In this document: positions 3,305 through 27,191 of the stretch, piece after piece
How positions within the stretch are numbered: position 1 is the stretch's first letter
Layout of the letters: every line of letters begins with the position of its first letter
IMG/VR virus record: IMGVR_UViG_3300030108_000549
Coordinates: 1-34,837 of that record
Reading direction: 5' to 3' (one strand)
From: a virus
DNA: 34,837 nt
The notes under the pieces: model-generated
The model's database searches: none
Told to the model about the DNA's origin: nothing
What the model saw: only the letters and a program-made list of their open reading frames with translations
Position numbers and translations under genes: made by a program

Positions 3305-3466
3305 TTATCTACCAGGAAATAGCGCTCTTTCTAAAGCATCGCAAAGCCTGTCGTCAACTGTATTATCAGTCTTCTTAACCATTGCTCGTACTATATCAAG
3401 TGCGAGTTTTTTTATTGCTGACCCACGAAGGAAGGCAAATAAAATAGGTTCAATAATTTTAAGCAT
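3305..3466 (-). CDS. Hypothetical 53-aa protein, first gene of leftward cluster
   Basis: ATG 3466 to TAA 3305. The sequence starts with a hydrophobic helix (MLKIIEPILFAFL), followed by an amphipathic part ending DDRLCDALERALFPGR. It reads as a real small protein and resembles small cyanophage proteins ending in 'LFP', from memory. It could associate with membranes through residues 1-14, but the hydrophobic stretch is short. It is preceded by the structured leader at 3487-3593. Confidence 0.6.
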   Translation of the reverse strand: MLKIIEPILFAFLRGSAIKKLALDIVRAMVKKTDNTVDDRLCDALERALFPGR

Positions 3467-3486: not shown

Positions 3487-3593
3487 ATCGGGAGATTGGT
3501 CAGTCGAACTCTTAAGACTGCCCTGCTTTAACCCCATATCAAGGGTCGTATGGCTTTCAGATCCGCTTTGCATAGATCATCAGGCTTCCCGAC
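3487..3593 (-). ncRNA. Structured leader or small RNA, 107 nt
   Basis: On the minus strand a 7-bp closing stem (GTCGGGA 3593-3587 with TCCCGAT 3493-3487, one G-U) encloses several hairpins: CAGTC/GACTG (3501-3505 with 3516-3520), CCATA/TATGG (3534-3538 with 3549-3553), and GATC/GATC (3560-3563 with 3575-3578). The CCATA loop contains AGGG/CCCT (3542-3545), which can pair with 3521-3524 to form a pseudoknot. The element ends 20 nt before ATG 3466, as expected of a riboswitch-like or autoregulatory leader. It is neither a tRNA (no T-arm) nor a known riboswitch that I can identify. The strand is inferred from the downstream gene. Confidence 0.45.
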
Positions 3594-3606
3594 TTATCTA
3601 AATATT

Positions 3607-3612
3607 ACTATA
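3607..3612 (-). promoter_or_regulatory. Possible -10 box for the leftward cluster
   Basis: TATAGT on the minus strand would start transcription near 3600, just before the 107-nt structured element. No -35 match is convincing at the right distance; the region upstream is an A/T tract with inverted repeat TTAGA/TCTAA. Confidence 0.3.
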
Positions 3613-3641
3613 AATTAGAAAAAAAATCTAAACGGAAAACT

Positions 3642-3671
3642 AGTGTGCCAATTAAATTAGTGTCACACTAA
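3642..3671. promoter_or_regulatory. Operator-like palindrome with an extra half-site
   Basis: TTAGTGT-C-ACACTAA (3657-3671) is a perfect 15-bp palindrome with 7-bp arms. A further half-site AGTGTG at 3642-3647 is inverted relative to CACACT at 3664-3669. The site lies between the divergent units starting near 3600 (minus) and 3709 (plus), where a repressor could control both. Confidence 0.5.
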
Positions 3672-3696: not shown

Positions 3697-3702
3697 TATA
3701 AT
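3697..3702 (+). promoter_or_regulatory. Consensus -10 box TATAAT
   Basis: A perfect TATAAT with no clear -35 (TCCTAT at the 17-nt position). An activator, or the operator-binding protein 26 nt upstream, may be needed. Predicted transcription start is about 3709, at the base of a 10-bp hairpin. Confidence 0.5.
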
Positions 3703-3706
3703 AAGG

Positions 3707-3730
3707 ATAGCCGATAGAGGTATCGGCTAT
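3707..3730 (+). promoter_or_regulatory. 5'-terminal mRNA hairpin
   Basis: Perfect 10-bp inverted repeat ATAGCCGATA/TATCGGCTAT with tetraloop GAGG and no T-tract after it. It coincides with the predicted 5' end of the transcript for the gene at 3752. 5'-terminal stems of this kind protect mRNA from RNase E or RppH-dependent decay in bacteria and phages. Confidence 0.5.
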
Positions 3731-3751
3731 GTACCTTGACTCTTGAATACT

Positions 3752-4138
3752 ATGAATCTTAATGGTTTTTATCAAGGCAAATCTTGCCTTGCTATTACTC
3801 AGTTTGAAGCACCTTTCTGCTTTAAAACTGAAAGTAATTATAAATTAGTATCGACTAATTTAAAACCACATAAAGGCAAAGAAGTTACTGTAGCTTGGCT
3901 TGCCGATCATAACTCTGGACGTAACTCTTTTGATACTCAACTTTCTGTGAAAGGAATATTGGATTATAAAGAGGAAAACGAATTAACTTTATATCAAGTT
4001 TTACTTGATAACCAAAACTATTCGTATTTTACAGATGCTAATGTTTGGCAAATAAGTCAAAAAGCAAATGCTACTCCAGTAATCATGATTGGTAAAACAT
4101 CAGAAACTGACTTTGACTACGAGAAATTTAGCTCGTAA
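3752..4138 (+). CDS. Hypothetical beta-rich protein, 128 aa
   Basis: I chose ATG 3752; a TTG at 3743 is possible but less likely. The protein is soluble and rich in beta-prone segments (GKEVTVAWLADH, TQLSVKGILDYK, TLYQVLLDNQNYSYF), which suggests a barrel such as an OB or SH3 fold. It ends DFDYEKFSS. No family recognised. It has its own promoter with a hairpin leader and is followed by a UUCG hairpin, so it may be regulated as a single unit. Confidence 0.65.
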   Translation: MNLNGFYQGKSCLAITQFEAPFCFKTESNYKLVSTNLKPHKGKEVTVAWLADHNSGRNSFDTQLSVKGILDYKEENELTLYQVLLDNQNYSYFTDANVWQISQKANATPVIMIGKTSETDFDYEKFSS

Positions 4139-23938: not shown

Positions 23939-24543
23939 CCTATAAATGTACCTATAGACGGAAAAAGATCTCTGGTGCATTGACGTTTTGGCGCACGAAT
24001 ACCAGCCATATCAAAAACTGCTGCTAATTCAAATTGAACTACAGTTCTATTTTCTGCTGATTTTCGATCTATATAATATACCTCTCTAGGAAACTCTGCA
24101 TCTGGATCAGGAGTGCCAAATGGATTAGTTGCACCAGAAAAATTAGCAACATCTAAAAATTTTGCCATTGTTCTAATTCTTGTCACTTTAGCCCCTGTCA
24201 AATCATTACCAGCCGTAAAACTATTTGCAGCCAACAATACAGCCGACATACTAGGAGTTCCCATATTACTTACAGTTATTGTTGGTCTTGGTAATTGTCC
24301 TCGTTGAAATGCAAAACCAGTAGCCTCTACAGGGAATCTAAGATATTCCTCTCCATTCCAAAAAATATTTCCATATGCATCAAGATCGCTACCAGAATGA
24401 AATCTATGTACTGTAGTTATATTTGTGGGATTACCTGTAGCGTAATTAAGTCCTTCTTTTAATTCAAGTTTAAATAACTCAATAATTGAGGATGGATTTA
24501 CTTTTTGTATATCACTAAAAACAGGTGCAGTATCTATTGTCAT
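23935..24543 (-). CDS. L: Minor tail protein L lacking the Fe-S cysteine domain
   Basis: 202 aa against 232 in lambda. Residues 15-185 match gpL: IELFKLELKEG, VHRFHSGSDLDAYGN, and RLPRPTITVSNM-like QLPRPTITVSNM. Lambda gpL ends in a domain with cysteines that hold a [4Fe-4S] cluster. Here the protein stops soon after APKRQC, leaving one C-terminal Cys (about 189) and the tail FPSIGTFIG, so that cluster cannot form. ATGA overlaps on both sides show the short end is genuine and not a frameshift error. Connects the tube to the tip. Confidence 0.9.
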   Translation of the reverse strand: MTIDTAPVFSDIQKVNPSSIIELFKLELKEGLNYATGNPTNITTVHRFHSGSDLDAYGNIFWNGEEYLRFPVEATGFAFQRGQLPRPTITVSNMGTPSMSAVLLAANSFTAGNDLTGAKVTRIRTMAKFLDVANFSGATNPFGTPDPDAEFPREVYYIDRKSAENRTVVQFELAAVFDMAGIRAPKRQCTRDLFPSIGTFIG

Positions 24544-25109
24544 GGTTCAAATTTCTGTACAAATGTAGCTGTTATCGTAGCTAAATTAGGCAAATCAATT
24601 ACCTTACTCCATTCTGGACATACAAATTTATATGATGCTGATTTTGTTATAGATACATTACCGTTTGTTGTCGCACCACTAGCTGCTGTAACCAAAAAAT
24701 TATTAGCATTAGTAATAGAAGAAACTATATAAGTACCATCAGCAGCAGTTCCAGAGGTAAAGTCAATAACCAAAGAATCACCAGCGAATAATCTATGATT
24801 TGCAACAGTTATAGTTATAGTCGTACTACTTTGTGAATATGTTCCTGTTTTAGTAAAAGCTTCTCTTGGTGGAGAGTATGTAAAACTTGCCTTATCTTGC
24901 GCTCTTTCTTGTAAAAAATATTCAATCGTATCTGACTCTTCCTCAGTAATATTTTCCCATTTTAAATTAAAAATTTTAGGATCTTGATTATTTGGCAAAC
25001 CAAAGCCTAAACGATGCTCAAATCCATCAGCAAAAGATACAACCTTAGTTTTTGGTTGTGATTTTTTAGTAACACTAAATGAAGGTTCAATAGCTGGAAA
25101 GTTTGCCAT
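24540..25109 (-). CDS. M: Minor tail protein M with an inserted domain
   Basis: 189 aa against 109 in lambda gpM. Residues 1-84 and 158-189 match gpM: KTKVVSFADGFEHRLGFGL, TEEESDTIEYFLQERA, then YKFVCPEWSKVIDLPNLATI. Between them, about 85-158, sits a beta-rich, Thr/Ser/Ala-rich insertion (TITITVANHRLFAGDSL, DGTYIVSSITNANN). It abuts the tape measure stop upstream and overlaps L by ATGA. The inserted domain may project from the tail tip. Confidence 0.88.
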   Translation of the reverse strand: MANFPAIEPSFSVTKKSQPKTKVVSFADGFEHRLGFGLPNNQDPKIFNLKWENITEEESDTIEYFLQERAQDKASFTYSPPREAFTKTGTYSQSSTTITITVANHRLFAGDSLVIDFTSGTAADGTYIVSSITNANNFLVTAASGATTNGNVSITKSASYKFVCPEWSKVIDLPNLATITATFVQKFEP

Positions 25110-27191
25110 TTATCTTAAAAGTCCTCCTGGTCTTTTTTGTTTAATCATTTCTGATTGAATAGCAACAGCTAAAGCCTTGCCAAATTGTTCTGATCTCGCA
25201 GAGTCTCCTTCTACAGAGCTACCAGAAGCATCTACATTTACAACAATATTACCAACACCTCCAGAACTTTGCACTCCAAGCTTTCCATTCGCACCACGTT
25301 TCAACGGCATGATTGCTTCCGGGCCAGCTTCGCCCATAAGCCCCATTCCTTGGGCCATAGGAAATAATGTGGGCTTTTTAATTATGCCCCCATACGCAAA
25401 CTTAGAAATTTTATTACCAGCATCGTATACATTTCCCATTGCATTTTTACCACCTGTTATTCGATCAAAAAATGGAAAAGGGCTTAAGAAGTTAAGCAAT
25501 GATGCTCTTACAAGCATTCTGGTGAGATCAGACATAATTGATCTTGCTAAATCACTAAAATTTAACTTACCTGTCATTACAAAATTTACTAAAGCGTCTT
25601 CCATACCTTTAAATGCACTACCTACAGCATCTTGAGTTTGCTTGGCAAAATCACCGATAGTGTCAAAATATGCTTTAGCTCCCTTTTGAATATTATTAAG
25701 AGATTCAGTTGTCTCATTTTTAGAGGTTTTATTTAAATCAGCTACAGTTCCTTTAAACTGACCTGTTAGACCATCATAAACATTACCACCAACAGTAAAA
25801 TCTTTTGGAATAAATTGTGATCGTAAATCTGATTGTGCTGATGCTTTAATACCTACTTGTGTTGCTCTATTTTTTATAAGTTCTCTTTTCAGTTGATTTG
25901 CATGCTTAGTATCTTGTTTTGCTAAAACTTTTAATCTTGCATCAATATTTCTTATTTGCCTATCAGCTTCTTCTATTGTTTTTCTCAATCCTTCTTCTTT
26001 CATTTCTATTTGAAACTTTTTAACACGTTTAATTACTTCATTAAAAGCTCCAACTGCTTGTGCTGCAAAAGTTTGGAATGCTGCACCCATTGGTCTTAAT
26101 ATATCCCCTAAACTATCTTTTAGATTAGACATTTCTGTCCTTAACCTATCACCAGCAGCTTCTGGACTTGCAGCAAGTATTTCTGCATTTTCTCCATAAG
26201 TATCAAATAATTTTTCTGCAAACTTCATAAAATCATCTAACGTAACTTTACCTTGCTCTAATGCCTTATCTAATTCTGCTGGAGTTTTATCCATAGAATC
26301 TGCAAATAAAGTAAACGCACCGGGTAGTCTTTCACCCAATTGTTGTCTTAATTCTTCGGCTGATACTTTGCCTTTTGAGAACACCTGGCTAGTCGCTCTC
26401 ATAGCAGCTTTCATGTCTTCTAAGTTTCCACCAGTTCCTCTAATACCAGCAGCTATTGCTTTAAATACTTTTTCAGCATCAGCAGTTTCTTTACCAGCAC
26501 CTTTTACAGAAGCAGTTAATGAGGTAAATTGTCTTACTATTACATCTTGAGGTATTGCTAATTTTTTACTTCTATCAGCTAAGAATTCTTGCGATTTAGC
26601 AAATTCTTTTGTGTCGCCAATAACAAGTTTTAAAGCTTTTCTTTGTAATTCTAATGCTGCATCATAATCAGCAACCTCTCCAATACTTTGACGAACCATT
26701 CCTACTTGCGCACCAACAGCAGCACCAACAGCAGCACCAGCAGGGCCGCCAATACCCAAACCAATACCAGCACCTATAGCACCTTCTGGCCCTCCAAAAA
26801 TACCACCAGCCGCTATAGCTCCAGCACCTTTAGCAAAACCTCCTAATTTACTTTTAAAACCAGTAGTGCCAGCACCAGCCTTTCTCATCTGTGCATCTAA
26901 TTTCGCAATATCAGCAGTAAGCTGTTTAAATTCAACACTTGTAACATCAGCCATGTTACGCAAACCATTCAAAGCATTTCTTTGAGCTTGCATTGCGTTC
27001 AAACTATTTCTTGCTCCAGCACCTAATTTATTAAATTCACTCTTTACTTTTGCAATTGAATCTTTTGATAAAGATTTAAAATCTTTATTAAGTCTTGTTG
27101 TCTCACCACGAAGCCTTTTAAATGCTTTTGCTACCTCACCCTCACCTTTCGTTAAAAAAGCAATATTAATTTGTGAAGTTTGTTTAGCCAT
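25110..27191 (-). CDS. H: Tail tape measure protein
   Basis: 693 aa. Coiled-coil N-terminus (KAFKRLRGETTRLNKDF), a Gly/Ala-rich hydrophobic stretch at about 125-165 (PEGAIGAGIGLGIGGPAGAA), and the conserved tape-measure segment KVSAEELRQQLGERLPGAF with TPAELDKALEQGKVTLDDF. The C-terminus has the lambda H-type region FKGMEDALVNFVMTGKLNF, cut during maturation in lambda. At about 1.5 Angstrom per residue the tail would be about 100 nm, an estimate. Lies between the G-T chaperones and M. Confidence 0.92.
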   Translation of the reverse strand: MAKQTSQINIAFLTKGEGEVAKAFKRLRGETTRLNKDFKSLSKDSIAKVKSEFNKLGAGARNSLNAMQAQRNALNGLRNMADVTSVEFKQLTADIAKLDAQMRKAGAGTTGFKSKLGGFAKGAGAIAAGGIFGGPEGAIGAGIGLGIGGPAGAAVGAAVGAQVGMVRQSIGEVADYDAALELQRKALKLVIGDTKEFAKSQEFLADRSKKLAIPQDVIVRQFTSLTASVKGAGKETADAEKVFKAIAAGIRGTGGNLEDMKAAMRATSQVFSKGKVSAEELRQQLGERLPGAFTLFADSMDKTPAELDKALEQGKVTLDDFMKFAEKLFDTYGENAEILAASPEAAGDRLRTEMSNLKDSLGDILRPMGAAFQTFAAQAVGAFNEVIKRVKKFQIEMKEEGLRKTIEEADRQIRNIDARLKVLAKQDTKHANQLKRELIKNRATQVGIKASAQSDLRSQFIPKDFTVGGNVYDGLTGQFKGTVADLNKTSKNETTESLNNIQKGAKAYFDTIGDFAKQTQDAVGSAFKGMEDALVNFVMTGKLNFSDLARSIMSDLTRMLVRASLLNFLSPFPFFDRITGGKNAMGNVYDAGNKISKFAYGGIIKKPTLFPMAQGMGLMGEAGPEAIMPLKRGANGKLGVQSSGGVGNIVVNVDASGSSVEGDSARSEQFGKALAVAIQSEMIKQKRPGGLLR

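Follow-up and report, generated by a model that had tools for sequence, protein, structure and literature searches.

A conserved structured RNA of marine cyanophages and Synechococcus with a variable loop complementary to the leader of a neighbouring gene

A 107-nt element between two divergent genes, at positions 3487-3593 of a 34,837-nt viral sequence (IMG/VR record IMGVR_UViG_3300030108_000549, analysed whole and hereafter called the window), is, judged by comparison of homologues, a conserved structured RNA common to marine cyanophages and Synechococcus. We consider it probable that this is a stand-alone antisense RNA with its own promoter, whose P5 loop would pair with the leader of a neighbouring gene and block ribosome binding. 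The relevant parts of the window are listed here.

3487-3593, minus strand: structured RNA, with covariation in P1, P3, P4 and P5; it matches the covariance model with 103 bits, the window being one of the model's own sequences
3587-3593, minus strand: 5' strand of P1 (pairs with 3487-3493); the last pair exchanges A-U, U-A and G-C
3582-3584, minus strand: 5' strand of P2, CCU (with 3521-3523); 23/23 sequences pair, with U-G and U-A and no double change
3560-3578, minus strand: P3 hairpin, GAUC...GAUC; changes on both sides in 5/5 pairs
3525-3554, minus strand: P4 arm with a conserved AUA internal loop; its base exchanges C-G to U-A
3501-3520, minus strand: P5 hairpin, CAGUC-UUAAGAGUUC-GACUG; both-side changes in 4/4 stem pairs counted
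3506-3515, minus strand: P5 loop UUAAGAGUUC, putative antisense segment, indicated by co-variation and the peak of own-leader complementarity (z 5.0)
3602-3612, minus strand: AT-rich stretch TATAGTAATAT, conserved in class 1, possible -10 region of the RNA's own promoter
3305-3466, minus strand: gene behind the RNA (57 aa, phrog_2738, unknown function), not the predicted target
3707-3730, plus strand: leader hairpin ATAGCCGAT-AGAG-GTATCGGCTAT, immediately before the target site; relatives have it too, with altered pairs
3738-3746, plus strand: putative target site GACUCUUGA, 6-14 nt before ATG 3752; 9 bp with 2 G-U
3752-4138, plus strand: divergent gene, predicted target (128 aa); in relatives this leader precedes unrelated genes

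The first-pass annotation, made from the letters of the window, had proposed a noncoding element of this length with a 7-bp closing stem and three internal helices, and this description was borne out on the minus strand (5' end at 3593; P1 GTCGGGA/TCCCGAT, 3593-3587 with 3493-3487) by covariation across homologues. As a single-sequence observation it could have been due to chance, because its folding energy (-30.7 kcal/mol, against -26.7, sd 3.5, for shuffles; z -1.1) is ordinary for its composition. It is therefore comparison, not thermodynamics, that makes the element real: homologues from more than 60 marine phage contigs and from marine Synechococcus genomes carry compensatory changes in four helices, and a lack of such changes, which the annotation had named as grounds for giving up the element, does not apply. 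When a hand-specified structure was laid over 23 distinct phage homologues, 98.6% of cells paired in P1, P2, P3, the base of P4 and P5, versus 24-51% for the same structure slid out of register, and 32 double changes were counted (0/500 shuffles). Among 53 phage and Synechococcus sequences, double changes occur in 14/19 pairs and the covariation score is 0.50 versus 0.20, in an alignment that was fitted to the model and thus leans towards that structure. Several pairings have been rewritten: P3 occurs as GAUCC/GGAUC, GACUU/AAGUC, GACUG/CAGUC, GACCC/GGGUC or GACUA/UAGUC, and the apical part of P4 exchanges GACCC/GGGUU with GAUCC/GGAUU within class 1 (defined below). P2 (CCU/RGG) pairs in 100% of cells of the 23 sequences, U-G and U-A both being seen, and takes the place of the pseudoknot once suspected between AGGG (3521-3524) and 3542-3545, which is not kept across homologues; 3521-3523 pair instead with CCU 3582-3584. 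The unpaired parts AGCCUGA, UGAAA and AUA are nearly invariant, and G-U pairs (GGUC/GAUC; U-G in P3) make the minus strand the more likely RNA.

Homologues fall into different genomic settings. A search with the 57-aa protein encoded behind the element yielded 80 loci, 14 with the RNA (class 1) and 66 without. A pattern drawn from the P3/P4 region retrieved further members (class 2/3), in which the RNA starts at a small gene's stop codon or no more than ~8 nt from it, and a convergent gene usually comes next. The small gene before class-2 RNAs encodes a protein ending in ...HALNEL, and the RNA lies directly behind a HALNEL-type gene in 56 of 60 relatives, the other four being taken as cut off by contig ends. 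Genome-wide, all ten matches to the pattern were in marine Synechococcus. A search of eight such genomes with a covariance model next gave 1-19 copies in each, and of 151 genomes from the family, 17 had a match under strict filters. Most of these copies stand 5-17 nt past a stop codon; the proteins encoded by the genes concerned are unrelated and often small and secreted, and many copies are followed by a terminator-like hairpin. BLAST against phage genomes returned no matches for the class-2 element and short chance-level ones for the window element, and two exact-pattern matches (L085, L089) were dismissed as chance. As a separate observation, Synechococcus genes with the RNA at their 3' end (L342, L343, L312-L341) look like a regulon: upstream they have TNGGGGGA boxes and a leader hairpin, GAGGTCC-AGGAGGGAT-GACCTCC, in common, and the proteins that they encode are unrelated and often secreted. 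Relatives of the 57-aa gene that lack the RNA (L014-L065) have another conserved leader just upstream, a double hairpin (CCTCTTC...GAAGAGG, then TAGCTC...GAGCTACTAT...TAGC) that is itself a candidate structured element.

How might the RNA act? Transcription probably runs leftward from its own promoter, the conserved TATAGTAATAT lying just upstream; a promoter scan of the window did not pick up this stretch (3602..3612, minus strand), and listed the stem of the hairpin at 3707..3730 on the minus strand too. In the folded RNA, the conserved scaffold P1-P4 would present the variable P5 loop UUAAGAGUUC, which would pair at GACUCUUGA, 6-14 nt ahead of the ATG, with the leader of the divergent gene 3752-4138, cover that leader, deny it to ribosomes and so repress translation. 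We infer RNA production, pairing in the cell, repression and the role of the target gene from comparison of sequences, and the effect on the target may be activation instead.

The evidence for this pairing in class 1 is that loop and leader change together. The target site keeps its place in relatives and exists as three co-varying alleles (AAGAGUU with GACUCUU, GAGUUG with CAACUC, and UUUAAGGUUU with GAACCUUGAA), each pairing being short (6-10 bp, G-U pairs included). For 21 distinct class-1 loci, the loop/leader score is 326.8 versus 282.1 (sd 9.5) for permuted partners (0/20000); the three alleles may represent few independent events, and a shuffled-loop test with one representative of each, taken jointly, gave p 0.0002. 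Scanning along the class-1 RNA reveals a single strong peak of own-leader complementarity, which coincides with the P5 loop (z 5.0). Which leader allele is present goes with the loop and not with the gene behind it, since MIKFTK-type genes carry all three alleles, and the genes behind the leader are unrelated, of at least seven types; a family search with the 128-aa product of 3752..4138 gave no significant match. In one locus (L009) the first gene is without the site, and there is a weaker 6-bp match. Seen on its own, the juxtaposition of a conserved leader (hairpin plus antisense site) with wholly different genes, in window 3700-4138 and class-1 relatives, marks this region as a cargo slot whose 5' untranslated region is fixed. 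Other targets fared less well. Matches of class-1 loops to the genes behind the RNA (57-aa, zinc-ribbon and 94-aa) are not conserved, and a cis target there was rejected. Within the contig, the leader that matches the P5 loop most strongly (near 25124, minus strand; 13 bp with 3 G-U) lies directly before the ATG of a tail-region gene, 24540-25109, which was also rejected as the target as the match is not kept in the three relatives found; it is possibly a second target or chance. Between the divergent transcripts there is also a palindrome, TAGTGTG...CACACTA (3641-3647 with 3664-3670), possibly an operator for a phage repressor.

On sequence grounds, the same loop rule recurs in three other arrangements of RNA and gene. 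In nearly all class-2 cyanophage loci, the HALNEL gene has CUUCGC or CUUCGU at its start, which matches the loop GCGAAG, and a second loop type matches CUUCGUGUA; class-3 loci (L148, L155, L156, L221) show no loop/start match. For Synechococcus copies, which lie 3' of their gene, the rule appears to hold more weakly: with start codons chosen by hand, loops outperform shuffled loops (1/2000), own leaders outperform others (890/50000), and in 10 of 23 genes no sampled stretch away from the start scores as high as the start region; a broader automatic permutation is not significant (5198/50000). The third arrangement is that of sRNA-Xcc1 (RF02221), true members of which occur in phages and in plasmid-collection records (69-73 bits in six of them), mostly 30-60 nt before antirepressor, KilA-N, BRO or Rha genes. 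There the P5 loop is complementary to the SD/start of the linked gene (CCUCUGCUUGG versus CCAAGCAGAGG; CUUUGUGA versus UCACAAAG(GAGG)), the loop/SD score being 225.6 versus 174.4 (sd 9.6) for permuted pairs (0/50000; n=12 diverse phages and replicons). With a 12-nt sliding window, own-gene complementarity along sRNA-Xcc1 is highest at P5 (z 7.7), and a second, lower maximum lies near the 3' side. Two further observations concern these members: a 3' stretch, UUUCGAAC/UUUUGAGC (L371-L385), is also complementary just upstream of the linked gene's SD (z 5.3), which suggests that it and P5 might form a two-point contact as in c4; and a Neisseria prophage holds a second sub-threshold sRNA-Xcc1 match (L374:3210-3280, 33.9 bits) between its first copy and a KilA-N gene.

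Whether the element is a cis-regulatory RNA or a free small RNA had been left undecided by the first-pass annotation, and the free RNA fits best. A cis leader of the leftward cluster, sensing a ligand or protein and controlling translation or termination, would agree with the 20-nt spacing between the RNA's 3' end and the cluster's conserved first start codon (ATG 3466), which was annotated correctly, as was the NrdR-like zinc ribbon in that cluster (PF22811, E=8.6e-9); a U-rich stretch after P1 that is conserved in class 1 and many invariant unpaired scaffold bases, as in ligand-binding RNAs, also point that way. However, the 57-aa gene stands without the RNA in 66 of its 80 relatives, class-2 copies come after a gene, with a convergent one usually on their other side, and loop variation tracks the divergent leader, to which the loop complementarity points instead of to the NrdR-like cluster. 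We therefore prefer a free RNA and regard the cis leader as unlikely.

Less likely again are two readings in which DNA, not RNA, is what matters. Loop and leader site could be repeated DNA sites for a co-evolving protein, the RNA fold serving something else; this would suit class 1, where the two form a direct repeat flanking the operator-like palindrome, but the repeat is inverted in sRNA-Xcc1, class 2 and Synechococcus, only RNA complementarity is common to all, and the site is found at start codons and within the loop of a hairpin that covaries, so that we consider this quite improbable. Marginally fainter still is the prospect that gene cassettes carry the element as structured single-stranded DNA or as a mobile recombination site (attC-like). 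Copies do lie close behind stop codons, several per genome and sometimes ~1 kb apart, and sRNA-Xcc1 is carried in integron cassettes (PMC12444791); against this, one strand tolerates G-U pairs and not their A-C complements, the units have their own leaders and terminators, unlike integron cassettes, and, as expected from RNA pairing, one arrangement has a direct repeat and the others an inverted one. RNA and target are on opposite strands in class 1 and on the same strand elsewhere, which makes RNA pairing the factor common to both repeat orientations. An antisense RNA in the window, unable to share a transcript with its target, would have to act in trans.

Antisense control by structured phage RNAs is already known. 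What is new, as far as the open-access literature that we searched goes, is (i) the cyanophage/Synechococcus family, (ii) its link to sRNA-Xcc1 and (iii) a loop re-written per neighbouring gene in four arrangements. There is about an even chance that all this reflects one portable antisense scaffold, spread from Proteobacteria to Cyanobacteria and their phages, the single loop of which is re-written for each neighbour (downstream, upstream or divergent), and which has multiplied in marine Synechococcus (up to 19 copies per genome) into the 3' ends of many small self-silencing genes. What was an unexplained intergenic fold becomes a testable regulator, and reading the P5 loop to find the target provides a working rule for the family, which extends across marine phages and a main ocean phototroph. 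It also offers sRNA-Xcc1, whose published targets are computational predictions, a candidate function in silencing the adjoining antirepressor-type gene. For the design of gene control in cyanobacteria, too, a scaffold that occurs in nature and has one re-writable loop is of interest.

That the RNA belongs to no accepted class, as first supposed, is upheld by Rfam searches at gathering and relaxed thresholds, which gave only chance matches for phage copies. Among the classes considered and rejected, a riboswitch has no Rfam match, and class-2 and Synechococcus copies follow their gene instead of leading it; ARAGORN finds no tRNA; and a hammerhead ribozyme (core CUGANGA/GAAA), hinted at by CUGAUGA...GAAA, has no model match and would have its stem II start after A9, whereas the covarying P3 pairs through G8-A9. 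The latter also speaks against a hammerhead-like core or box C/D kink-turn, as does the replacement of the G-C pair in L221. The single relation to a known class that emerged is distant and sub-threshold. The sRNA-Xcc1 model does not match the window element; it scores copies of the cyanophage/Synechococcus RNA at 15-29 bits (best 25.9-28.9, against a curated cut-off of 53), with sub-threshold matches in 11 of 12 Synechococcus genomes, most of which coincide with positions of this RNA, and one of the three copies in WH7803 aligns end to end (25.9 bits, E 0.0081). In reverse, the model of the cyanophage/Synechococcus RNA finds the true sRNA-Xcc1 places, weakly. By these scores, the relation appears real or strongly convergent, below the cut-off for membership.

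sRNA-Xcc1, a discrete 88-nt RNA in Xanthomonas (PMC2996969) found there upstream of symE in cassettes (PMC12444791), appears to share with the cyanophage/Synechococcus RNA the P1 closing stem, the AUACAA-ACCC-GNRA-GGG arm and P5; in it, too, the P5 loop is complementary to the linked gene's start region. It differs in having no P3 and in preceding antirepressor-type or symE genes, whereas cyanophage/Synechococcus members lie behind their target or divergent to it. The c4 RNA of phages P1/P7, which is excised from a longer transcript and covers a ribosome-binding site with its b' loop (PMC5320573), is likewise a structured phage RNA with a loop complementary to the ribosome-binding region of a nearby gene. 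However, c4 (RF01695) uses two loops, not one, and shares its target's transcript (release by RNase P), whereas the window RNA and its target are divergent, on opposite strands. Since the c4 covariance model has no match in the window or at RNA positions of four Synechococcus genomes, the best reading is that our RNA would work like c4 without being a member of its class. Finally, in SymR/SymE (PMC1891008), an antisense RNA beside a gene represses that gene by pairing. The RNA described here likewise adjoins a gene that it would repress by pairing but, unlike SymR, which is encoded opposite its target gene, it is a separate locus that would pair via one short loop.
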